Source: a virus. Taken from it: a stretch of 20,680 nucleotides of DNA. Shown in pieces: positions 43-8,274 of the stretch (position 1 is its first letter; every line of letters starts with the position of its first letter). The notes under the pieces were generated by a model. The model worked only from the letters and a program-made list of their open reading frames with translations. It ran no database searches and was not told where the DNA came from. The translations under genes and the position numbers were made by a program. The stretch spans positions 1 through 20,680 of the IMG/VR virus record IMGVR_UViG_3300020438_000349; one strand, given 5' to 3'.

Positions 43-909
43 ATGGAGAGCATCTTGAAAGATACAATATTATTTGGTGATTGTGTAGAAACACTTAAAC
101 AATTCGATGAAAAAGCTAGGTGTTGCATCACATCTCCACCTTATTATGGTTTAAGAGACTATGGAGGGGAGGATTGTCAGATAGGGTTAGAAGAATCTCC
201 AGAAGAGTATATTCAAAAATTAGTAAAAGTATTCCGAGAGGTAAGAAATAATCTAACAGAAGATGGAACATTATGGGTGAATATTGGTGATAGTTATTAT
301 AACTATAGACCTGGAAAAGGTCAAGGATTAGTTAAACAAACTGTTTCTGCTAATAAACAAGATCTACCAGACAAATGTGCAAGACGAGGTAATAAATTAG
401 AAGGATATAAAGAGAAAGATTTAATGGGAATACCTTGGATGTTAGCATTTGCATTAAGAGCAGATGGATGGTACTTAAGGCAGGATATTATATGGAGTAA
501 ACCTAATCCTATGCCAGAAAGTGTAAGAGATAGATGTACTAAATCCCATGAATATATGTTCTTATTGAGTAAGAATCAAAACTATTATTTTGATGTTGAT
601 GCAATTAAAGTAGCAAATTCTACTGGTAATCAACTCAAACGTAGGAAAAGTGTATGGAATGTTAACACTAAACCCAATAAAGATGCACATTTTGCAGTAT
701 ATCCACCTGAACTAATTGAACCATGTATATTAGCAAGTAGTCAACAAAATGATATAATTCTTGATCCTTTTATGGGATCTGGAACTACTGCAATGGTAGC
801 AAAATCATTAGGAAGGTATTACATAGGGTGTGAATTGCATGAGGATTATGTTAATCTAATAGAAAACAGAATATCACAACAAGGGGGGACGCTTAAAGCG
901 TTCCTATAG
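43..909 (+). CDS. DNA methyltransferase, N4-cytosine/N6-adenine type (beta class)
   Basis: This protein should transfer a methyl group from S-adenosylmethionine to an exocyclic amino group of a base in phage or host DNA. The catalytic motif SPPY is at residues 31-34 (in TSPPYYGLRDYG). The SAM-binding motif DPFMGSGTT is at 241-249. Catalytic motif first and SAM motif last is the beta-class order of the N4/N6 family. SPPY is more usual in N4-cytosine enzymes, but the base cannot be fixed from sequence. At 288 residues the length is normal for a complete enzyme. The frame is open to the window edge, but the ATG at 43 fits the family, whose members begin shortly before a GDC motif (here residues 12-14). 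No restriction endonuclease lies beside it, so it looks like an orphan methylase, perhaps protecting phage DNA. The last codons and the stop lie inside repeat copy A. Confidence 0.93.
   Translation: MESILKDTILFGDCVETLKQFDEKARCCITSPPYYGLRDYGGEDCQIGLEESPEEYIQKLVKVFREVRNNLTEDGTLWVNIGDSYYNYRPGKGQGLVKQTVSANKQDLPDKCARRGNKLEGYKEKDLMGIPWMLAFALRADGWYLRQDIIWSKPNPMPESVRDRCTKSHEYMFLLSKNQNYYFDVDAIKVANSTGNQLKRRKSVWNVNTKPNKDAHFAVYPPELIEPCILASSQQNDIILDPFMGSGTTAMVAKSLGRYYIGCELHEDYVNLIENRISQQGGTLKAFL
883..909 (+). repeat. Junction hairpin element, copy A
   Basis: This is the first of six related copies. It has six G at 883-888, then a hairpin: GGACGC (887-892), loop TTAAA, and GCGTTC (898-903) as the 3' arm with one G-T pair. 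The methyltransferase reads through it and stops at TAG 907-909. The arm pair C:G next to the loop matches copies B and E, while C, D and F have other bases at that position. A further structured stretch follows at once (909-987). I do not recognise the element from a named family. Confidence 0.75.
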
Positions 910-987
910 TGTAAGGCATCCGTAAGACTTTCAAGGTTGCGTTCAGTCGCATTTAAGTCGAACTTAAGCAAATATAAGTCCTTACAC
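909..987 (+). other. Possible structured RNA leader (three-way junction)
   Basis: The intergenic stretch before the gene at 1011 has nested inverted repeats. GTGTAAGG (909-916) pairs with CCTTACAC (980-987) and ACTT (927-930) with AAGT (976-979). Inside are two hairpins: TGCG/CGCA (938-941/948-951, six-base loop) and TTAAGT/ACTTAA (953-958/962-967, three-base loop). The outer stem resembles a tRNA acceptor, but there is no T-loop GTTCRAN motif and no anticodon arm, so it is not a tRNA. CTTAAAGCG of copy A (892-900) could instead pair with 948-957 with one bulge. Confidence 0.4.
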
Positions 988-1010
988 CTATTGTTTAAAT
1001 TTTTAACTAC

Positions 1011-1316
1011 ATGGCAACACGCAGAAGAACTTCAGCAACTCGTAAGACTGCTAAATCTGCTACACCCATTGTTAAGGAATCAAGGGCAAGTGTTAAGAAA
1101 GTTACAACAACTGCCCCTAAACGTGTAAATAAAGTTACACCAAAGAAGGTAATTGAAGTGGCAGAAGTAACACCAACTCCCGTAAAAGATACCCTTAACC
1201 TAGAGAAACTATTTCAGGATTATCCTCGTGACGGTTTCGCACTTGCTCTCCTTCCTTTACTATTATTGGAAGCATTAACCAAAGAAGGTTTAAAGATAGC
1301 AGGTGTAATTTCTTAA
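1011..1316 (+). CDS. Small basic Lys/Ala/Thr-rich protein, function unknown
   Basis: The protein has 101 residues. Roughly residues 1-55 form a low-complexity tail rich in Lys, Arg, Thr, Ala, Val and Pro (it starts MATRRRTSATRKTAKSA), like histone H1-type or other nucleic-acid-binding tails. Residues 62-101 are ordinary and partly hydrophobic, with a Leu-rich run (ALALLPLLLLEAL) that looks like an amphipathic or packing helix rather than a signal peptide. A DNA- or RNA-binding role is an inference from charge only. The gene follows the structured leader, and the box TTGTTTAAATTT sits at 991-1002, eight bases before the ATG. The same box precedes two other genes after element copies C and F. 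A terminator closes the gene. The overlapping frame from 937 is a shadow. Confidence 0.72.
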   Translation: MATRRRTSATRKTAKSATPIVKESRASVKKVTTTAPKRVNKVTPKKVIEVAEVTPTPVKDTLNLEKLFQDYPRDGFALALLPLLLLEALTKEGLKIAGVIS

Positions 1317-1329
1317 ATTATATTACACT

Positions 1330-1353
1330 GGGGGTTGAAAGATCCCCTTTTTT
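1330..1353 (+). terminator. Rho-independent terminator
   Basis: GGGGGT (1330-1335) pairs with ATCCCC (1342-1347) with one G-T pair. The loop is TGAAAG and six T follow directly (1348-1353). It lies 14 bases after the stop of the basic-protein gene and before the ligase-like gene at 1376. Confidence 0.8.
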
Positions 1354-1375
1354 ATGTTAAAATTGACTTATTATT

Positions 1376-2308
1376 ATGCAAAACAAACACATTGAACATC
1401 CTGAAGATTCCATACTAAATGGCAATTTGGATGTATTAGATTGGTTTACCAGTAATGGTAAGATAACAGCAAAGATTGATGGTGCCCCAGCAATAGTTTG
1501 GGGGACTAATCCTGTTAATAATAAATTTTTTATAGGAACTAAAAGTGTCTTCAACAAAAAACTCATCAAAATCAACTATAACCATACCGATATTGATAGA
1601 AACCATAAAGGAGAAGTGGCAAATATTTTGCATATCTGTTTTGATAATCTTCCTGATACAAGTAATATCTACCAAGGTGATTTCATCGGTTTTGGTGGGA
1701 CTGATTCTTTCAATCCTAACACCATCAGATACATTTTCCCAGATAAAGTTTCCCAAGAAATAGTAATCGCACCGCATACAACTTACACCACTAATGGTGA
1801 TTTAAGGGATGCAATCGCAAGACCTATTAGTGATAAAGAACTGATATCTTTATGGCAAGATGCAGAAGATGTTTACTTTGTTTATCCAGATGTAACAATA
1901 GATCAGCAAAGAGATAATATACATGACCTATGCAAATTTGCAAGACAAATTGCAACTTTATGTGAGTTCCCTAATGATAAACAAGTCAAGACAATTAAGA
2001 AGCAATTGAATACATGTATCAGAGAAGATATTGATGTTGATGATATTGTACAGGACGTATTAGCTGATGATAACAACATAGATGTAAATGTATTGCGTTT
2101 GTGGAAGTTAGTGCAGTCAATTAAGCACGATATGTTTAACTATATCTCATGTAATGATGATATTGAATGTTACATTGAGGAAGAATATTGTGACCATGAG
2201 GGTTATGTAATGGTGAATGAGTTTGGTACATTTAAGATCGTTAATCGTGAAGGTTTCAGTAAGTCAAACTTCTTACTGTCCAAGATGAGAACAAAGGGGG
2301 ACGCATAA
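1376..2308 (+). CDS. Ligase-like nucleotidyltransferase (KxDG motif)
   Basis: This protein has the hallmarks of the covalent nucleotidyltransferase fold used by ATP-dependent DNA ligases, RNA ligases and capping enzymes. Motif I is K33-I-D-G36, with K33 the expected AMP-accepting lysine. A YQGDFIGFG segment is a possible motif III. EGYV (E275-G276) and FKIV (K287) match motifs IV and V. At 310 residues it is the size of small phage RNA ligases. Residues about 180-250 look helical and acidic and may be an added domain. I recall proteins like this in cyanophages as uncharacterised or RNA-ligase-like, so the substrate is open: sealing broken tRNA or RNA is one possibility, DNA joining another. 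No Shine-Dalgarno is evident. The last codons (TKGDA, stop) lie in repeat copy B and are shared with the small gene at 5060. Confidence 0.8.
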   Translation: MQNKHIEHPEDSILNGNLDVLDWFTSNGKITAKIDGAPAIVWGTNPVNNKFFIGTKSVFNKKLIKINYNHTDIDRNHKGEVANILHICFDNLPDTSNIYQGDFIGFGGTDSFNPNTIRYIFPDKVSQEIVIAPHTTYTTNGDLRDAIARPISDKELISLWQDAEDVYFVYPDVTIDQQRDNIHDLCKFARQIATLCEFPNDKQVKTIKKQLNTCIREDIDVDDIVQDVLADDNNIDVNVLRLWKLVQSIKHDMFNYISCNDDIECYIEEEYCDHEGYVMVNEFGTFKIVNREGFSKSNFLLSKMRTKGDA

Positions 2309-2322
2309 AGTGTTATAATAAT
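2296..2322 (+). repeat. Junction hairpin element, copy B
   Basis: Five G, then GACGC (2300-2304) pairs through loop ATAAA with GTGTT (2310-2314, one G-T pair). The stop TAA of the ligase-like gene is in the loop. The motif ACAAAGGGGGACGCATAAAG (2291-2310) is identical to that in copy E. The tail reads TATAATAATG instead of CTATTAATG, and a terminator hairpin follows directly. Confidence 0.75.
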
Positions 2323-2354
2323 GAGGAGGCAATCTCCTCATTAATCATTTTTTT
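2319..2354 (+). terminator. Rho-independent terminator after ligase-like gene
   Basis: TAATGAGGAG (2319-2328) pairs perfectly with CTCCTCATTA (2334-2343) across the loop GCAAT. Seven T follow at 2348-2354 after four bases. It takes the place of the second hairpin seen after the other element copies. Confidence 0.8.
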
Positions 2355-2363
2355 ATTTTGTTT

Positions 2364-2783
2364 ATGTCAAATTTATCTGAAAGAGTTCTTGATTGGACTA
2401 AAACCTATTGTGAGACTCTAACAGAAAATTATAAACAGCATAGTGTAAGAATGTTTCAAAGTTCTGATTCTAACTATTCTAAACAAAGGTTAGAAGATGT
2501 AAACAATGGAACTGCTAATCTTACCACGTTTGTTATCAAAAATGGTCGCAAGTATTACAAGATTATGCAACGAGAATTTGATACATTCCAAGACCGTAAT
2601 GAATGGAGAGAAGGATGTGTTCATGCTTTCGTTGATAAGAATACAGGCGAAGTTTACAAACCTGCTGGATATAATGCACCAGCAAAGCACGTTAGATATG
2701 ATTTAAGAGTCATAAATGATCGTGCTAAATTACATGACCCAGACTATACTGGATGGGCAGGTGGTTATCTCTATATGAGATAA
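2364..2783 (+). CDS. Conserved cyanophage-type hypothetical protein
   Basis: The protein has 139 residues. The frame can be extended two codons upstream to a TTG, but the ATG at 2364 is the better start (MSNLSERV). The middle and C-terminal parts hold FVIKNGRKYYKI, HAFVDKNTGEVYKPAGYNAP, VRYDLR and a terminal WAGGYLYMR. I remember this pattern as a recurrent small protein of T4-like cyanophages, but I know no function for it. It is soluble, with no signal peptide or membrane segment. It sits between two terminators (2319-2354 and 2766-2795), so it may be transcribed alone or by read-through. Confidence 0.85.
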   Translation: MSNLSERVLDWTKTYCETLTENYKQHSVRMFQSSDSNYSKQRLEDVNNGTANLTTFVIKNGRKYYKIMQREFDTFQDRNEWREGCVHAFVDKNTGEVYKPAGYNAPAKHVRYDLRVINDRAKLHDPDYTGWAGGYLYMR

Positions 2784-2795
2784 TCCATTTTTTTT
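2766..2795 (+). terminator. Rho-independent terminator overlapping a gene end
   Basis: TATCTC (2766-2771) pairs with GAGATA (2777-2782) across loop TATAT. Eight T follow at 2788-2795. The stem is made of the last codons and stop of the gene ending at 2783. Confidence 0.65.
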
Positions 2796-2820
2796 ATTCT
2801 AACATAAGGAGGTTAATTCC

Positions 2821-3048
2821 ATGTATAAAAGTGAAACATTCGGGAGAATCTTCTGGGTTGATGATGAGAACGATTTCAAATCATGCCCACTAAATGTAGA
2901 TGGAACGGGTGATTTTAATTGTGAAGATTATGTATCAGAGTGGTCAGATTGGGATGGAGTTAATTATGAAACTCTCTTTAATATCCATCAGTCATGTGTA
3001 CTTAACAAGAACAATTACGCAGGTTCATTAACAATTAATGGAGTATGA
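2821..3048 (+). CDS. Small acidic hypothetical protein
   Basis: The protein has 75 residues and is rich in Asp, Glu, Asn and Trp (EDYVSEWSDWDGVNYE), so it is acidic and soluble. I do not recognise it. The start is well supported: a strong Shine-Dalgarno, TAAGGAGGT at 2805-2813, lies eight bases before the ATG, which is unusual here because most genes in the window lack one. It opens a three-gene set with 3045 and 3227, each overlapping the next by ATGA, which implies coupled translation. Confidence 0.8.
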   Translation: MYKSETFGRIFWVDDENDFKSCPLNVDGTGDFNCEDYVSEWSDWDGVNYETLFNIHQSCVLNKNNYAGSLTINGV

Positions 3049-3230
3049 TTACAACTACTATTTCATTCGCACCTATCACAAATAGGGCAAGAGCAGGTAA
3101 ATGGGGCAAACATATTATGTGTCCTAATTGTAAATCAATCAATAAAGTTTATCACTTTAATTGGTCAGGATTACAATGCTCTCAATGTAAAGAATTAATT
3201 GACAAACCTCTATGGAGTATAGAACAATGA
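3045..3230 (+). CDS. Small zinc-ribbon-like protein
   Basis: The protein has 61 residues with two cysteine pairs: C26-x2-C29 and C45-x2-C48, separated by 15 residues (CPNC and CSQC). That is the spacing of a zinc ribbon, so it should bind one zinc ion and may contact nucleic acid or a protein. The segment VYHFNWSGLQC between the pairs resembles a small family I recall from cyanophages. The ATG overlaps the previous stop as ATGA, which supports this start. Another start at Met25 (3117) would leave only the ribbon. The function is unknown. Confidence 0.8.
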   Translation: MITTTISFAPITNRARAGKWGKHIMCPNCKSINKVYHFNWSGLQCSQCKELIDKPLWSIEQ

Positions 3231-3478
3231 CCAGACAATCATTCAAACCAACTGTTAGCGAAAATCTAAATGTTGATCACAAAGTAACACTAACTGAAGG
3301 TGAAATTAGTACTATATTGTATTACCTTGATCAAGTTGCTGATGATATTGGAGAGTCCTATATTGCATCTCTTGAGGTACAATCAATATACAGTAAGTTA
3401 GAAACAGTTGTTGATACTTACTATGATAAATTAGAGAGGGCAAGAAGTCAACAACCAAATGCAGAATGGGAGGACTAA
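3227..3478 (+). CDS. Hypothetical helical protein
   Basis: The protein has 83 residues from the ATG at 3227, which overlaps the upstream stop as ATGA. The frame also has an ATG at 3212, but that would sit inside the preceding gene without a ribosome site. The sequence reads as mostly helical (GEISTILYYLDQVADDI, then SIYSKLETVVDTYYDKLERA) and acidic, and would suit a small protein that binds a partner. I do not recognise it. It ends the coupled set that begins at 2821. Confidence 0.8.
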   Translation: MTRQSFKPTVSENLNVDHKVTLTEGEISTILYYLDQVADDIGESYIASLEVQSIYSKLETVVDTYYDKLERARSQQPNAEWED

Positions 3479-3484
3479 TTAACA

Positions 3485-3625
3485 ATGAAATGGGACGTTA
3501 AGTTATACGTAGGCGGTCAAGTCTTCGTAGAAAGTGTTAGAGCAGTCAACTATTCTGACGCAAAAGAAACAGCAATGGCACGAAATCCGAAAGCAAAGTT
3601 TATATCAGCAAACCCAATTCCATGA
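3485..3625 (+). CDS. Small conserved-looking protein
   Basis: This frame has 46 residues, ATG at 3485 and TGA at 3623-3625, six bases after the previous gene. The protein begins MKWDVKLYVGGQVFVE and continues SYSDAKE-like into ARNPKAKFISANPIP. The layout is beta strand, beta strand, helix, strand. I recall similar very short proteins (ending in ARNPxAK) in cyanophage genomes, without a known role. Alternating hydrophobic residues and an ordered pattern make it likely to be real despite its size. Confidence 0.72.
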   Translation: MKWDVKLYVGGQVFVESVRAVNYSDAKETAMARNPKAKFISANPIP

Positions 3626-3639
3626 GAAATGTATATAAT

Positions 3640-3668
3640 GGGGGGACGGGTAAAGTGTCCTATTAATG
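3640..3668 (+). repeat. Junction hairpin element, copy C
   Basis: Six G, then GGACG (3644-3648) pairs with TGTCC (3656-3660, one G-T pair) across a seven-base loop. CTATTAATG follows. All 29 bases are identical to copy D. A second hairpin, TGAAGG/CCTTCA (3667-3672/3680-3685), starts at the terminal ATG, and the box TTGTTTAATTT follows at 3690-3700. Confidence 0.8.
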
Positions 3669-3707
3669 AAGGCACGAGTCCTTCACAAGTTGTTTAATTT
3701 TGAATCT

Positions 3708-3911
3708 ATGAACGAATTTTTATATACAGTCGAAACTCCAAAGAATTTCGAGGATGGAAACATCCAAACCTCTAGTCTTGACAAGGCAAATGACCTATGT
3801 TTTGACTTACATTTAGAGTATGATTATTCATGCGTTAGATGTAACATAACAGGCGAAATCGTTGCCGAATATGGCGAAGTTTTCCCATTAGTTGCGGAGG
3901 GTTATGTATAA
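3708..3911 (+). CDS. Hypothetical protein
   Basis: The protein has 67 residues from ATG 3708 (MNEFLYTVETPKNF). The frame is also open from an ATG at 3666, which would add 14 residues. That ATG belongs to repeat copy C, and in copies D and F the same ATG is followed at once by a stop, so it is probably not a start in general. The box TTGTTTAATTT seven bases before 3708 matches the leader of the genes at 1011 and 7002. The protein is acidic and contains DLHLEYDYSCVRCN and NITGEIVAEYGEV. I do not recognise it. Its stop overlaps the next start as TAATG. Confidence 0.75.
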   Translation: MNEFLYTVETPKNFEDGNIQTSSLDKANDLCFDLHLEYDYSCVRCNITGEIVAEYGEVFPLVAEGYV

Positions 3912-4069
3912 TGAGTTGCCTACAAAATGAAATGATTCTTGAAGATCTATTTGAAGAGATTCTATCTGAACTATACATCACTCACAAAGATGATGTCATT
4001 AGTAGAAAAGAACTCGAAGAGATTGCTGCTACTAAAGCACAAGAACGCTTCGAAGATATGTGCCACTAA
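3911..4069 (+). CDS. Very small acidic helical protein
   Basis: This frame has 52 residues, with the ATG sharing one base with the previous stop (TAATG), so translation is likely coupled. The preceding GGAGGGTTATGT stretch gives a possible ribosome site. The sequence is a nearly continuous charged helix (LEDLFEEILSELY, then RKELEEIAATKAQERFEDM). The function is unknown. The terminator at 4054-4087 uses its last codons as stem. Confidence 0.68.
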   Translation: MSCLQNEMILEDLFEEILSELYITHKDDVISRKELEEIAATKAQERFEDMCH

Positions 4070-4087
4070 TTAACACATATCTTTTTT
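4054..4087 (+). terminator. Rho-independent terminator overlapping a gene end
   Basis: AGATATGTG (4054-4062) pairs perfectly with CACATATCT (4074-4082) across an 11-base loop, within a run of six T (4082-4087). The stop codon of the preceding gene is in the loop. Confidence 0.7.
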
Positions 4088-4108
4088 ATTATTCTTTCTT
4101 GATTAACA

Positions 4109-4261
4109 ATGAACACTAACGAATTACAATCTTTTCATGCTAAACTAGCAACTGAAGATAGAAACCAAACTCAAGGATTGTCTTCCTTAATTAATATACA
4201 GGAGGATGAAAGGCAAAAGGAATATTGTTATAAACCTTATCGTACTTTACACAATTACTAA
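4109..4261 (+). CDS. Putative very small protein
   Basis: This frame has 50 residues, with ATG at 4109-4111 and TAA at 4259-4261, polar and Gln/Asn/Glu-rich (MNTNELQSFHAKLATEDRNQ). It has no Shine-Dalgarno and no recognisable domain. It is supported by position only: it fills the gap between a terminator and the next small frame at 4267, in the same strand and packing style as its neighbours. It may be spurious. Confidence 0.5.
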   Translation: MNTNELQSFHAKLATEDRNQTQGLSSLINIQEDERQKEYCYKPYRTLHNY

Positions 4262-4266
4262 CACTT

Positions 4267-4407
4267 ATGCAAGACTATTCTGCTCCTGAATATAAAGATC
4301 TCTACAAAGAAATCCTTATTGATTCACAATGGACTTACGGAAAGTTCTGTGTTATTCCTTATCCATTCTATCAATCTTCTGAACAAAATGAAAAACAATC
4401 TACTTAA
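4267..4407 (+). CDS. Putative very small protein
   Basis: This frame has 46 residues, starting five bases after the previous frame. The composition is aromatic (YKDLYKEILIDSQWTYGKF, then PYPFYQ), which is protein-like rather than random. It overlaps the next gene by 20 bases in another frame. I do not recognise it. Confidence 0.55.
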   Translation: MQDYSAPEYKDLYKEILIDSQWTYGKFCVIPYPFYQSSEQNEKQST

Positions 4408-4612
4408 TTCTTTACAGAAAGATATATCTTACTGCATTGATTACCTTGAGCTAGATGATACTCAAATCGGAGAAATGCTTCGTGCTTGTGAACAATTAGG
4501 GAACATCTCTGTTGAATACTTTTGCGAAGAATTTATCTTCCAATGTGATACTGAAGAGGAGTTAGATCGTTACCATGATGATAACTATCTAAAAATTAAT
4601 TGGAAGTTATAA
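4388..4612 (+). CDS. Small acidic hypothetical protein
   Basis: The protein has 74 residues from ATG 4388 (MKNNLLNSLQKD). The frame extends up to an ATG at 4319, but that part lies inside the frame 4267-4407 and reads poorly, so the shorter start is preferred. It is Glu/Asp-rich and helical (DISYCIDYLELDDTQIGEML, then CDTEEELDRYHDDNYLKI), with three Cys that do not form a metal-site spacing. The function is unknown. Repeat copy D starts two bases after the stop. Confidence 0.75.
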   Translation: MKNNLLNSLQKDISYCIDYLELDDTQIGEMLRACEQLGNISVEYFCEEFIFQCDTEEELDRYHDDNYLKINWKL

Positions 4613-4613
4613 A

Positions 4614-4642
4614 GGGGGGACGGGTAAAGTGTCCTATTAATG
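4614..4642 (+). repeat. Junction hairpin element, copy D
   Basis: This copy matches copy C base for base over 29 bases. The terminal ATG (4640-4642) is followed directly by TAA, so it cannot start a protein here. A second hairpin TGTAA/TTACA (4641-4645/4651-4655, five-base loop) follows, then the gene at 4665. Confidence 0.8.
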
Positions 4643-4664
4643 TAAGCACATTACAAAAGCATTT

Positions 4665-5012
4665 ATGAGAAAACTTGAAAGACAAATGAACTTCGCTATC
4701 TCTAATAAGGGTAACTGGGCAGGATCCAATACCACTGTTACATATAACGAGTTTACTAATTGCAGTCAAGTTCTTCTACATGGTCACAACATTGCATCCT
4801 ATGATCATAATACTTCAGGATTGAAATTGTCCTCTTGTGGTTATGAAACAGTGACGACAAAAAGCAGACTAAATGCTATTTTGTTTGAACTAAAAACAGG
4901 TTGTAAAGTATTCCAAAAACAGTGGGAGTGGTTCATTGGTAACAATCAAGAGACCAAATCCTTTGTTGATGGTATGATTTTGTTAGATGAATATGCCCTA
5001 GAGATAGTATAA
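4665..5012 (+). CDS. Conserved cyanophage-type hypothetical protein
   Basis: The protein has 115 residues (MRKLERQMNFAISN). It contains VLLHGHNIASYD and TTKSRLNAILFEL, a combination I remember from a small protein family repeated across T4-like cyanophages, with no known function. The body looks like alternating beta strands followed by a helix and an aromatic stretch (FQKQWEWFIGN). It is soluble, with no signal peptide. Its leader is repeat copy D plus a small hairpin. The stop lies in the loop of the terminator 5001-5029. Confidence 0.85.
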   Translation: MRKLERQMNFAISNKGNWAGSNTTVTYNEFTNCSQVLLHGHNIASYDHNTSGLKLSSCGYETVTTKSRLNAILFELKTGCKVFQKQWEWFIGNNQETKSFVDGMILLDEYALEIV

Positions 5013-5029
5013 CTTACTATCTCTTTTTT
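5001..5029 (+). terminator. Rho-independent terminator overlapping a gene end
   Basis: GAGATAGTA (5001-5009) pairs perfectly with TACTATCTC (5015-5023) across loop TAACT, which holds the stop codon of the upstream gene. Six T follow (5024-5029). Confidence 0.85.
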
Positions 5030-5059
5030 CTGTCCTTTATTATCACATTACTAAAGCAA

Positions 5060-5221
5060 ATGCGAATCTTAACTATCAACGAATACAGTGAAGTCTGTAA
5101 GAGTTATGAACAATTTGGTTCTAAACTATTTGATGAAATGTTTTTAGGTTATGATGACAATTCTGTCTCATATCTTTATAACGAAGATTATTACCAATGT
5201 AATACAAAGGGGGACGCATAA
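5060..5221 (+). CDS. Very small acidic protein sharing a C-terminus with the ligase-like gene
   Basis: This frame has 53 residues (MRILTINEYSEVCKSYE), acidic and Tyr-rich. The last five residues, TKGDA, and the stop are encoded by repeat copy E. The same codons end the unrelated ligase-like gene at 2308. The clean position between a terminator and the element supports a real gene. The function is unknown. Confidence 0.68.
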   Translation: MRILTINEYSEVCKSYEQFGSKLFDEMFLGYDDNSVSYLYNEDYYQCNTKGDA

Positions 5222-5236
5222 AGCGTTCTATTAATG
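5209..5236 (+). repeat. Junction hairpin element, copy E
   Basis: Five G, then GGACGC (5212-5217) pairs with GCGTTC (5223-5228) across ATAAA, with one G-T pair. CTATTAATG follows. The stop of the 53-residue gene is in the loop and the terminal ATG (5234-5236) is the apparent start of the next gene. I see no clear second hairpin after this copy. Confidence 0.78.
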
Positions 5237-5500
5237 TACACCACTATTCAAAACTTTCAAATGGAAATTACATCCAAAGACGGAAATATGGTTGTTGATT
5301 TCTATCCTGTTAAGAATTGGGATGGTAAATTAATTAGCAATCGTATGCTCAAAGTATTATCTTTTCGAGGTGATATGCAAAAGAAAATGATAATAAGCAG
5401 AGATGAGTTTTATTATCAAGTAAGAGAGTATATTAAGGATTATAAGTATTCAGTTACTTCTGAATATATGCCAGCACAATTTATTAATCAGGAGGTGTAA
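5234..5500 (+). CDS. Hypothetical protein
   Basis: The protein has 88 residues (MYTTIQNFQMEITSKDG), with alternating hydrophobic residues that suggest a small beta-sheet fold followed by helices. In-frame Met10 (5261) is an alternative start. Here the ATG of repeat copy E coincides with the frame start, unlike copies D and F. I do not recognise it. It is followed at three bases by the next gene, whose ribosome site lies inside its last codons. Confidence 0.78.
   Translation: MYTTIQNFQMEITSKDGNMVVDFYPVKNWDGKLISNRMLKVLSFRGDMQKKMIISRDEFYYQVREYIKDYKYSVTSEYMPAQFINQEV
5490..5496 (+). promoter_or_regulatory. Shine-Dalgarno that fixes a GTG start
   Basis: AGGAGGT at 5490-5496 lies six bases before GTG 5503. 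It is one of only a few strong ribosome sites in the window and selects the GTG as start of the next gene. Confidence 0.75.
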
Positions 5501-5502
5501 TC

Positions 5503-5772
5503 GTGCTTGAAACATTTATTGAACTTGCTGATTATGTGTGGTCATTCTATTCACCTAACAGCGAATTGTATCCGATTAAAGGTTTAACTATGGATGAAGT
5601 TTATGCTGCTATATTTGAATATAAGCAAAGATTGTTGAAGGTAAGTTATAACAACCCCGAATATATTAAAGCATTTGGTAACAATTATACTTACGGATAT
5701 GGTGATAGTTTAGATAGAGAAAGAGTCAGAGATATATTACTTGAAAATCCAAATCTATCATGGGGTAACTAA
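5503..5772 (+). CDS. Hypothetical helical protein
   Basis: The protein has 89 residues starting at GTG, with the ribosome site just upstream. It is mostly helical and Tyr-rich (FIELADYVWSFYS, then TMDEVYAAIFEYKQRLLKV). The stretch NNYTYGYGDSLDRERV is Gly/Tyr-rich. There is no recognised domain, signal peptide or membrane segment. It is the first of three closely packed genes (gaps of 2 and 16 bases) that are probably co-translated. Confidence 0.78.
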   Translation: MLETFIELADYVWSFYSPNSELYPIKGLTMDEVYAAIFEYKQRLLKVSYNNPEYIKAFGNNYTYGYGDSLDRERVRDILLENPNLSWGN

Positions 5773-5774
5773 CA

Positions 5775-5966
5775 ATGAAAACAACTCAATTAGAAACCAA
5801 ACTTAACTTTTTATCTGACGTATTAGAAGACTTTTGTATTAAGAATGGAATTGAATTTATGTCTGCTGATGATATATTATATTCAGACATTCCATTAACA
5901 ACTTATCAGAAAGATTGGTTAAGATTGTATATTAATACGTGGGACATTATCGAACAAAACTATTAA
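5775..5966 (+). CDS. Small hypothetical protein
   Basis: The protein has 63 residues, starting two bases after the previous stop. It is helical with aromatic residues (NFLSDVLEDFCIKNGIEF, then YQKDWLRLYINTWDII). I do not recognise it. The packing and composition match the surrounding accessory genes. Confidence 0.75.
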   Translation: MKTTQLETKLNFLSDVLEDFCIKNGIEFMSADDILYSDIPLTTYQKDWLRLYINTWDIIEQNY

Positions 5967-5982
5967 CCAAGAGGACACAATC

Positions 5983-6267
5983 ATGCCACAAATTAACAGA
6001 AACCCAAATGCAACTAATAGTGAATTAGATGCAAAACAGATAGTAACAAATAAGGAGTTAAATCCTAAACAAAGAGATGAACTAATTGAACAGTATGTAG
6101 AGTTAGTTGTTGATAATATGGACGTTAAATCTATGATGCAATTTATCACTGAAGAGTTAGAAATTAGGTATCGAAATGATTATACAGATGTTGAATTAAG
6201 AGAAGAAATTAATAACTTTGATGAGGAATTATATGATGAGTTAGTTGATAACGTAACCAGTGATTAA
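5983..6267 (+). CDS. Acidic hypothetical protein of cyanophage type
   Basis: The protein has 94 residues. The N-terminal ~25 residues are polar and probably loose (PQINRNPNATNSELDAKQ), followed by an acidic helical domain (RDELIEQYVELVVDNMDVKS, then EELEIRYRNDYTDVELREEI). I recall similar short acidic proteins in cyanophage accessory regions, without an assigned role. A weak ribosome site, GAGG at 5971-5974, lies eight bases before the ATG. It is the last gene before the long intergenic region 6268-6727. Confidence 0.82.
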   Translation: MPQINRNPNATNSELDAKQIVTNKELNPKQRDELIEQYVELVVDNMDVKSMMQFITEELEIRYRNDYTDVELREEINNFDEELYDELVDNVTSD

Positions 6268-6330
6268 GAAGGTATTATTAACAGTTAGAGAAGGTAATAT
6301 GTAAGGGGTAAGTATTAACCAATTTCATAG

Positions 6331-6639
6331 AGTTTTCCACAGTTATTGATACTATCTGTGGAAAACTATTGTATTATGATGTTAAATAGCGTTTTAAATG
6401 GTCTTATAAATATACATCTTCGTTGTAAAGGTTTTCCACAATGTTGTTAATAACTGGATGTAATATGTGGAATAAGTGTGTATAAAGGGGGTTATATTGT
6501 GGAATAATTGTTGATAAGTAGTGGTGATAATAGTGTGATTAAATGTGTAGAATTCTAGTGATTTTAGCGAGCGTAGTATAACACGAACTTGCGTAATATG
6601 TCAAGGGTTTTTTTACATTTTTCTGACAGGTTTTCCACA
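6331..6639. other. DnaA-box-like cluster, candidate replication origin
   Basis: The 460-base gap 6268-6727 holds no convincing gene but has repeated 9-mers. TTTTCCACA occurs at 6333-6341, 6432-6440 and 6631-6639 on the + strand and at 6357-6365 on the - strand. TATTCCACA occurs on the - strand at 6466-6474 and 6498-6506. The first pair forms a perfect 12-base inverted repeat (6331-6342/6356-6367) with a 13-base spacer. TTTTCCACA is, as I recall, the DnaA-box form of cyanobacterial origins and is close to the general TTATNCACA. Surrounding DNA is AT-rich, and a 10-base palindrome TAGAATTCTA is at 6548-6557. This could be a phage origin that uses host DnaA, a decoy for DnaA, or a DnaA-controlled regulatory region. 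The box count is what I see; the function is inference. Confidence 0.55.
6405..6412 (+). promoter_or_regulatory. TATAAATA late-promoter-like motif
   Basis: This is an exact match to the T4 late-promoter core TATAAATA. It sits inside the candidate origin region with no gene directly downstream. It could start a non-coding or primer transcript, or be chance in AT-rich DNA. Confidence 0.3.
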
Positions 6640-6669
6640 CAAAGTTATAACAATTCTGACACACGGTAG

Positions 6670-6698
6670 TTGACAACAATCCCGTATAATATTATAAT
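6670..6698 (+). promoter_or_regulatory. Sigma70-type promoter (early-like)
   Basis: TTGACA (6670-6675), a 17-base spacer and TATAAT (6693-6698) are both consensus boxes. A second TATAAT lies at 6685-6690, eight bases upstream. Transcription would begin near 6705 and reach the ATG at 6728. It shares the boxes, a CCC in the spacer and the doubled -10 with the promoter at 7156. Confidence 0.85.
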
Positions 6699-6727
6699 AG
6701 AGTATCAACAACCATCCCCCTAATCTA

Positions 6728-6901
6728 ATGACAGTTACTAACAACAACTGGACGAAGAGTAAGTATAGAATAACACTAGAGATTGATGCGTTCGATGACT
6801 TTAACCCCAGACAAATTGCGTGGGATAAAGTGTTACAAATGGGAGACAATGAGCAGGTACAAAGTTACATCGAAGACCTATCGAATCCCGTGAGTTGGTA
6901 A
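6728..6901 (+). CDS. Very small cyanophage-type protein, early-like
   Basis: The protein has 57 residues (MTVTNNNWTKSKYRITLEID). It carries YRITLEIDAFDDFNPRQIAW followed by a helix and VQSYIEDL, an arrangement I recall from tiny cyanophage proteins of unknown function. It is read from the consensus promoter at 6670-6698 with a leader of about 22 bases, so expression early in infection by host RNA polymerase is likely. Repeat copy F starts seven bases after its stop. No ribosome site is visible. Confidence 0.72.
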   Translation: MTVTNNNWTKSKYRITLEIDAFDDFNPRQIAWDKVLQMGDNEQVQSYIEDLSNPVSW

Positions 6902-6907
6902 CAGTAA

Positions 6908-6936
6908 GGGGGGACGAATAAAGTGTCCTATTAATG
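6908..6936 (+). repeat. Junction hairpin element, copy F
   Basis: Six G, then GGACG (6912-6916) pairs with TGTCC (6924-6928, one G-T pair), followed by CTATTAATG and a TAA directly after. The second hairpin AGCGA/TCGCT (6939-6943/6965-6969) follows. ATAAAGTGT inside the element (6918-6926) is also fully complementary to ACACTTTAT (6971-6979), giving a competing fold. The box TTGTTTAATTT is at 6981-6991. Confidence 0.78.
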
Positions 6937-7001
6937 TAAGCGAGGGCAGCAAATTGCAGTCTCTTCGCTAACACTTTATGTTGTTTAATTTCACACACAA
7001 A

Positions 7002-7155: not shown

Positions 7156-7184
7156 TTGACACATTGCCCCTATAATGTTATAAT
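7156..7184 (+). promoter_or_regulatory. Sigma70-type promoter (early-like), twin of 6670
   Basis: TTGACA (7156-7161), a 17-base spacer and TATAAT (7179-7184). A second TATAAT lies at 7171-7176. The doubled -10 and CCC in the spacer match the promoter at 6670. Transcription would start near 7191 and serve the frame at 7236 and perhaps the HNH gene at 7372. Confidence 0.85.
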
Positions 7185-8078: not shown

Positions 8079-8249
8079 ATGGCAAGTACTTATCACATAT
8101 ACTTAAAGGATAGATGTCTTTTCAAGGATCTTGATGAGGGAGAGTTTGAAGTTATATGGGGAAGGTTATACAGATCTTATTGGGACGATATTACATATTC
8201 AGAGGTTACGGATATCCCTACAGAAAAATACATCGAAGATTCATATTGA
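8079..8249 (+). CDS. Small conserved cyanophage-type protein
   Basis: The protein has 56 residues (MASTYHIYLKDRCLFKDLDE), then FEVIWGRLYRSYWDDITYSE. I recall this short pattern, with its STYHI start and WGRLY segment, from T4-like cyanophages near the baseplate genes, with no known function. It starts eight bases after the HNH gene. Its stop codon overlaps the -35 box of the promoter at 8246. Confidence 0.75.
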   Translation: MASTYHIYLKDRCLFKDLDEGEFEVIWGRLYRSYWDDITYSEVTDIPTEKYIEDSY

Positions 8250-8274
8250 CAGATACATAGAATTACTTTATAAT
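8246..8274 (+). promoter_or_regulatory. Sigma70-type promoter for the glycosyltransferase gene
   Basis: TTGACA (8246-8251), a 17-base spacer and TATAAT (8269-8274), with both boxes perfect. Transcription should start near 8281, leaving about 16 bases of leader before the ATG at 8297. Unlike the promoters at 6670 and 7156 it has a single -10 and no CCC in the spacer. Confidence 0.8.

Follow-up and report, generated by a model that had tools for sequence, protein, structure and literature searches.

A two-part repeated element with a genome-specific half at gene junctions of T4-like cyanophages: a candidate promoter class

The described elements closest to the one reported here are the PeSL (promoter-early stem-loop) cassettes, which are reportedly found in T4-like phages. 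Few PeSL-like features are present in S-PM2 (Puxty 2015, PMC4503421). Neither motA nor asiA is reported from cyanomyoviruses in general, and how these phages achieve middle transcription has been called unclear (PMC2984593); the annotation of S-SM2 looked for sigma-70, T4-late, Pho, and NtcA promoters only (PMC3037559). In the halovirus HF2, intergenic repeats carry promoters by reporter assay (PMC8707807).

The window analysed here is a whole IMG/VR virus record of 20,680 nt, a segment of a T4-like cyanophage that encodes a dam methyltransferase as well as gp25, gp6, and a gp7-like protein, that has numerous very small ORFs, and whose closest named relatives are Marine virus AG-345-O18, S-TIM4, and P-TIM68. 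It carries six related copies of a short element, with G-runs beginning at 883, 2296, 3640, 4614, 5209, and 6908, all on the + strand and all six at the end of a gene or just ahead of the next one (Table 1). A sequence-only reading of the window had pointed out these copies, with an invariant TAAAG and a usual ending of the 3' arm, and this description holds, TAAAG being present in 6/6 copies and the ending CTATTAATG in four of them. In each copy, two variable bases separate AAGGGGG(G)ACG from TAAAG, which is followed by the right arm, and the pattern GGGGACGNNNAAAGNG gave six forward, 0 reverse, and 0 reversed-control matches in the whole record. The same reading knew of no named family, which is borne out for Rfam, where a search with the element returned no match for the six copies, and no earlier description was found in the open-access literature searched. 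Its view of an undescribed and apparently functional multi-copy element at gene junctions can be extended to many cyanophages.

Table 1. Positions of the six element copies and of two leader stems in the window.
Feature	Coordinates	Strand	Parts	Context
Copy A	881..918	+	left half 881-893 (AAGGGGGGACGCT), right half 894-918	overlaps 3' end of dam methyltransferase ORF; precedes leader of 1011-1316 ORF
Copy B	2293..2330	+	left half 2293-2305, right half 2306-2330	stop codon of 1376-2308 gene is the TAA of TAAAG
Copy C	3638..3675	+	left half 3638-3650, right half 3651-3675	
Copy D	4612..4649	+	left half 4612-4624, right half 4625-4649	immediately behind stop of 4319-4612 ORF
Copy E	5206..5243	+	left half 5206-5218, right half 5219-5243	TAAAG gives 5060-5221 ORF its stop; ATG 5234 (columns 15-17) starts 5234-5500 ORF
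Copy F	6906..6943	+	left half 6906-6918, right half 6919-6943	immediately behind 6728-6901 ORF
Leader stem after copy A	909..987	+	GTGTAAGG (909-916) pairs with CCTTACAC (980-987)	begins within right half
Leader stem after copy B	2319..2343	+	TAATGAGGAG/CTCCTCATTA, then T-rich stretch	begins within right half

Other signals lie around the copies. Perfect TTGACA-N17-TATAAT promoters, separate from the copies, are found at 6670-6698, 7156-7184, and 8246-8274, and similar early promoters occur in all cyanophage genomes checked except S-RSM4, which has a weaker match only. In four other loci (L020, L067, L007, and L011), a sigma-70 promoter (TTGACA-N17-TAAACT or TATACT) directly follows some copies, in some cases with its -35 box covered by a stem, so that the element and a PeSL-like promoter stand in tandem. 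Strong terminator-like hairpins with T-runs lie immediately before genes at 1330-1352, 2763-2793, and 5000-5030 of the window, and the genes behind them lack both the element and any strong sigma-70 promoter. Directly behind the first of these, at the start of a phrog_455 gene, positions 1359-1384 match, in degenerate form, the P-TIM68 type of right half (TTAAAATTGACTTATTATTATG), with no left half beside it. In the non-coding stretch 6333-6640, 3 kb upstream of gp25, TTTTCCACA occurs four times without mismatch, where 0.3 occurrences would be expected in the whole window, and two of these copies form an inverted pair with a spacing of 24 nt. We take this sequence to be of the cyanobacterial DnaA-box type; inverted or close pairs of it were also found 2-8 kb upstream of gp25 in P-TIM68, Syn9, S-SM1, Syn33, S-PM2, and S-SM2, and the cluster is possibly an origin or a DnaA-binding site.

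Viral contigs were scanned with the G-run pattern, which matched 116 stretches holding as many as nine copies apiece, and with the right half only, which matched at least 120 stretches, partly overlapping the G-run set and many of them without a G-run. A strict count yielded 837 copies in 201 cyanophage loci or genomes. In 152 of the 153 multi-copy loci, every copy has the same orientation; the single deviation, in S-SM2, is due to a chance match. In five complete or near-complete genomes, the copies are confined to the variable region beside gp25-gp6-gp7: S-SM2 (12 copies, 42.7-58.5 kb), SynMITS9220M01 (12, 36.3-50.0 kb), P-TIM68 (13, 47.1-56.0 kb), the IMG/VR genome G001 (11, 156-169 kb), and S-B05 (14, located at 31.7-40.4 kb except for two at 156-157 kb, a place that also holds homologues of other phages' variable-region genes). 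The left half was found nowhere else on either strand of these five genomes. The repeated family was not seen in eight other cyanomyoviruses (S-TIM4, Syn9, S-PM2, S-SM1, P-HM1, S-RSM4, metaG-MbCM1, and Syn33), and 257 Gb of cellular genomes gave five matches, which is chance level apart from one Prochlorococcus single-cell contig that carries a full copy and is probably viral. A sense ORF precedes 589/602 copies, and this preceding gene in most cases ends at a stop codon in columns -24 to -13, counted from TAAAG as column 0, or at the TAA of TAAAG itself. Outside S-B05, in which the local gene order may have been rearranged, strand switches, at which nothing but a promoter would be sensible, were without a copy, which counts against a promoter. 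The small genes headed by the elements are situated in the variable region and are mostly without known function.

The element proved to be a site of about 37 bases in two parts, spanning columns -13 to +24 around TAAAG. Its right half (TAAAGTGTCCCTATAGTRTRASCAC) is constant across phages, while its left half, about 11 nt long, differs from phage to phage and is near-identical among the copies of one genome; identity within and between loci is 0.90 vs 0.45 for the left half, 0.875 vs 0.80 for the right half, and 0.52 vs 0.36 for the upstream flank. The left half reads AAGGGGGGTCG in S-SM2, GTTACTCACCTC at the same place in SynMITS9220M01, AATTACTCACCTC in S-B05, and GTTAGTTACCTC in P-TIM68, where the right half is somewhat different as well (TAAATTGACNTANTAATGTAA), and 31 left 7-mers were seen at least twice inside one locus. 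In a per-column analysis of twelve left-anchored groups, columns -10, -9, -7, -6, and -5 are almost fixed inside a group and almost free across groups, with about 1.95 bits at columns -10 to -5 within genomes and 0.04-0.5 bits when pooled, except at -8; C-4, T13, A14, and T16 are constant everywhere, A1-A3 having been required by that search. Within one genome, variable columns (-2, -1, 5, 9, and 12) stand next to fixed ones (in S-SM2, the variable columns are, for example, -2, -1, 5, 8, 9, and 12), and the boundaries at -13 and about +24 are sharp. Because fixed and free columns alternate inside a single genome, gene-conversion tracts do not explain the pattern. Five loci (L051, L155, L168, L199, and L203) are mixed, all of their copies being of one left type except for one of a foreign type, which looks like the recent acquisition of a cassette that brought its element along.

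The copies in the five genomes sit shortly ahead of the next start codon. Among 355 non-redundant copies, 103 have an ATG at columns 17-19, and in 96 of these (93%) it opens the downstream gene; 39 of the genes that start in this way have no second in-frame ATG nearby. In the remaining copies, the start lies mostly at columns 32-38. Their leaders are poor in G (8% vs 20% in the genome), and a Shine-Dalgarno-like sequence was present in 6/207 of them. Strong leader stems beginning at columns 13-17 are more frequent than in swapped controls (21 vs 7.8 expected), also in the strongest class (9 vs about 1 expected), and stems of this kind were seen after copies A, B, and C of the window; some leaders, not all, have a further hairpin. 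From the column-17 start codons and the leader stems, we infer that the 5' end of the mRNA would lie at or before about column 15 and that the functional RNA would contain column 15 onward. The 48 nt at 921-968, in the leader after copy A, have 96% identity to a place in metaG-MbCM1 that is without the element. Structured leaders similar to this one follow copies in three other loci (L003, L010, and L117), and none is known to Rfam.

On these comparisons, we narrowly favour the reading that the element is a phage-specific cis-regulatory site, most likely a class of promoter read by a candidate fast-evolving phage factor. The stop-to-start placement, the single strand, and the lineage-specific leaders suggest that the site sets the start of a message or of its translation. 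It would launch the short gene cassettes of the variable region in one lineage of T4-like cyanophages. Because the left half is common to all copies of a genome and changes as a set between genomes, its reader would be a phage-encoded trans-factor, binding the left block just upstream of TAAAG. The mRNA would then start near columns 12-15 (TATAG), giving nearly leaderless messages where an ATG stands at column 17 and short, G-poor leaders elsewhere, and the promoter class would be distinct from both the sigma-70 early promoters and the late promoter. A promoter is favoured because a 37-bp site with a variable and a constant part is ordinary for an RNA polymerase plus an activator, and also because cyanophages are without MotA/AsiA and their middle transcription has been left open (PMC2984593). 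Among the roles that the sequence-only reading had offered, the best match is a protein-binding site, taken here as a promoter-like site specific to each genome, and a recombination handle is possibly a by-product.

Several observations speak against a promoter. The region contains ordinary sigma-70 promoters whether or not a phage has the element, and no good -10 box is rightly placed in all lineages, TAAAGC being the commonest form in S-SM2 and NAAANG the one in S-B05. Conservation also extends beyond the inferred start and covers part of the leader, an uncommon feature in a bacterial promoter. Reading TATAGT or TAGTRT as a sigma-70 -10 box, so that transcription would begin around column 25, was rejected, since the column-17 ATG is used and the leader stems use columns 13-22; a -10 box at TAAAGT fits several lineages, not S-SM2 or S-B05. 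The idea that the element replaces early promoters is unsupported, as both clades have early promoters.

Gene-profile searches for the trans-factor gave only lineage-wide genes and no clear regulator. Genes common to the five element-bearing genomes and absent from the eight negative ones are mostly lineage markers. In SynMITS9220M01, a gene of 94 aa next to the first element tracks the left half but adjoins fibre genes and looks structural, and RegA is highly conserved across element-bearing phages and does not track the left half. A family of small, unusually fast-evolving genes of the variable region (S-SM2 49271-49495; 9220M01 40565-40792) is present in all five element-bearing genomes, not in the eight others, and is a weak candidate for the factor.

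A bolder form of the promoter reading, which we regard as plausible though somewhat doubtful, is a hitherto undescribed transcription or mRNA 5'-end system of T4-like cyanophages. Each lineage would use a promoter password of its own, one of at least 31 specificities built on one constant core, and a fast-evolving phage-encoded factor would read it. If this were true, each phage would possess a private regulon of 11-14 host-takeover cassettes, shielded against cross-activation by co-infecting relatives. A constant core joined to a genome-specific half, in 11-14 copies per genome, predicts both a regulon and its regulator, and the natural series of paired sites and factors could reveal how a regulator switches specificity together with all of its targets. 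It would also bear on the timing of early and middle genes in cyanophages without MotA/AsiA, which has been described as unclear (PMC2984593).

Action at the level of RNA is the serious rival, because sigma-70 promoters are present, a common -10 box is missing, and no factor was found, although we consider it rather unlikely. Long sigma-70 early transcripts would be cut or translationally controlled at the junctions by a phage RNA-binding protein or RNase, with the left half as the specificity part and a new 5' end near TATAG. With sigma-70 promoters present, a few early ones could cover the array, which would leave the element to act on RNA; such promoters are few per variable region. The motif fills the space between the preceding stop codon and the following start codon without a gap, its conservation extends into the leader and over the column-17 ATG, and the leader stems start within it. 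Against this, a conserved fold is absent, and RegA is too conserved to follow the left half. Moreover, we know of no phage RNase or repressor that reads a single-stranded site of 25-37 nt with at least 31 co-evolving specificities.

It is improbable that the element is a recombination handle, that is, a PeSL-like repeated junction for cassette swapping without a regulatory role of its own. Its position at cassette junctions in the hyperplastic region and the single foreign left types in the five loci named above would fit such a role, but homology tracts leave the alternation of fixed and free bases within a genome unexplained, differing left halves reduce homology between phages, and the element is tied to start codons.

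The sequence-only reading had proposed a conserved RNA hairpin whose two arms change together under selection for folding, an explanation to which we now give very little credence. The G-run copies do fold, with a median energy of -8.5 kcal/mol (z -2.7) vs -0.8 for the other left types, and the five inner pairs all form in 61% of G-run copies vs 1% of 199 unique copies of other types. However, the pair-keeping differences among the six window copies are all one-sided (G-C to G-U), and across 185 unique G-run copies 0/7 pairs show a two-sided change. In 28% of these 185 copies, the A of column -5 is a T, which breaks an A-U pair, and the partner never compensates; mutual information of paired columns is at shuffle level. 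Pairing with the right half is possible only for the G-run left type of the window, and related phages keep the position at junctions and not the pairing: the other left types retain the same right arm, GTGTCCC, without a partner, and SynMITS9220M01, P-TIM68, and S-B05 have no such stem. A conserved hairpin is rejected for the family and is at most a secondary trait of the G-run class, where it would be incidental to the left-half type of the window.

Neutral concerted evolution, in which gene conversion homogenises the copies while the left half simply drifts, is equally hard to credit; T4-like phages recombine heavily and the copies are alike inside a genome, but the edges are sharp, fixed and free columns alternate singly, and no trace appears in unrelated parts of the genome. 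Least probable of all is a phage guide RNA that pairs with the left half, which would make specificity switching easy, since exact full-length searches (shorter or wobble pairing aside) found no reverse complement of the 10-11-nt left half in S-SM2, SynMITS9220M01, P-TIM68, or G001, and none in S-B05 outside its own elements.

Compared with known systems, the favoured promoter reading resembles T7-family single-subunit RNA polymerase promoters in combining a constant core (CTATAG-like) with a specificity block that differs between phages, but the variable block of the element lies about 20-25 nt upstream of TATAG and not at -5 to -17. A T7-like promoter was rejected for either strand, CTATAG being palindromic, as the variable block is misplaced and no T7-like polymerase gene is annotated in S-SM2. 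The octamer of the T4/cyanophage late promoter, NATAAATA, does not occur in the element consensus. Like the T4 middle promoter (a MotA box plus a -10, with AsiA), the element would form a second, phage-factor-dependent class beside the early and late ones; it differs in its motif, which is far more conserved, in a left block nearer the inferred start than the MotA box, and in that cyanophages lack motA/asiA (PMC2984593). The HF2 repeats are likewise repeated intergenic viral sequences, but they belong to an archaeal virus, have other sequences, and keep their positions between relatives, and the abstract of PMC8707807 mentions no half that switches from genome to genome.

The comparison with PeSLs draws on PMC4503421 and general background. 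A PeSL consists of a terminator stem-loop and a sigma-70 early promoter, and both defining parts are missing from the element: its G-run stem is followed by TATAG rather than by a T-run, as the GC stem of an intrinsic terminator would be by a U-run, the other left types are stemless, and no host-type early promoter (TTGACA-N17-TATAAT, at least 9/12 matching) overlaps any of the six copies. Its genome-specific left half is a further difference. PeSLs are nevertheless the closest described elements, since both are short, multi-copy, and intergenic, lie near expression signals at cassette junctions of the hyperplastic region, and possibly aid gene shuffling.
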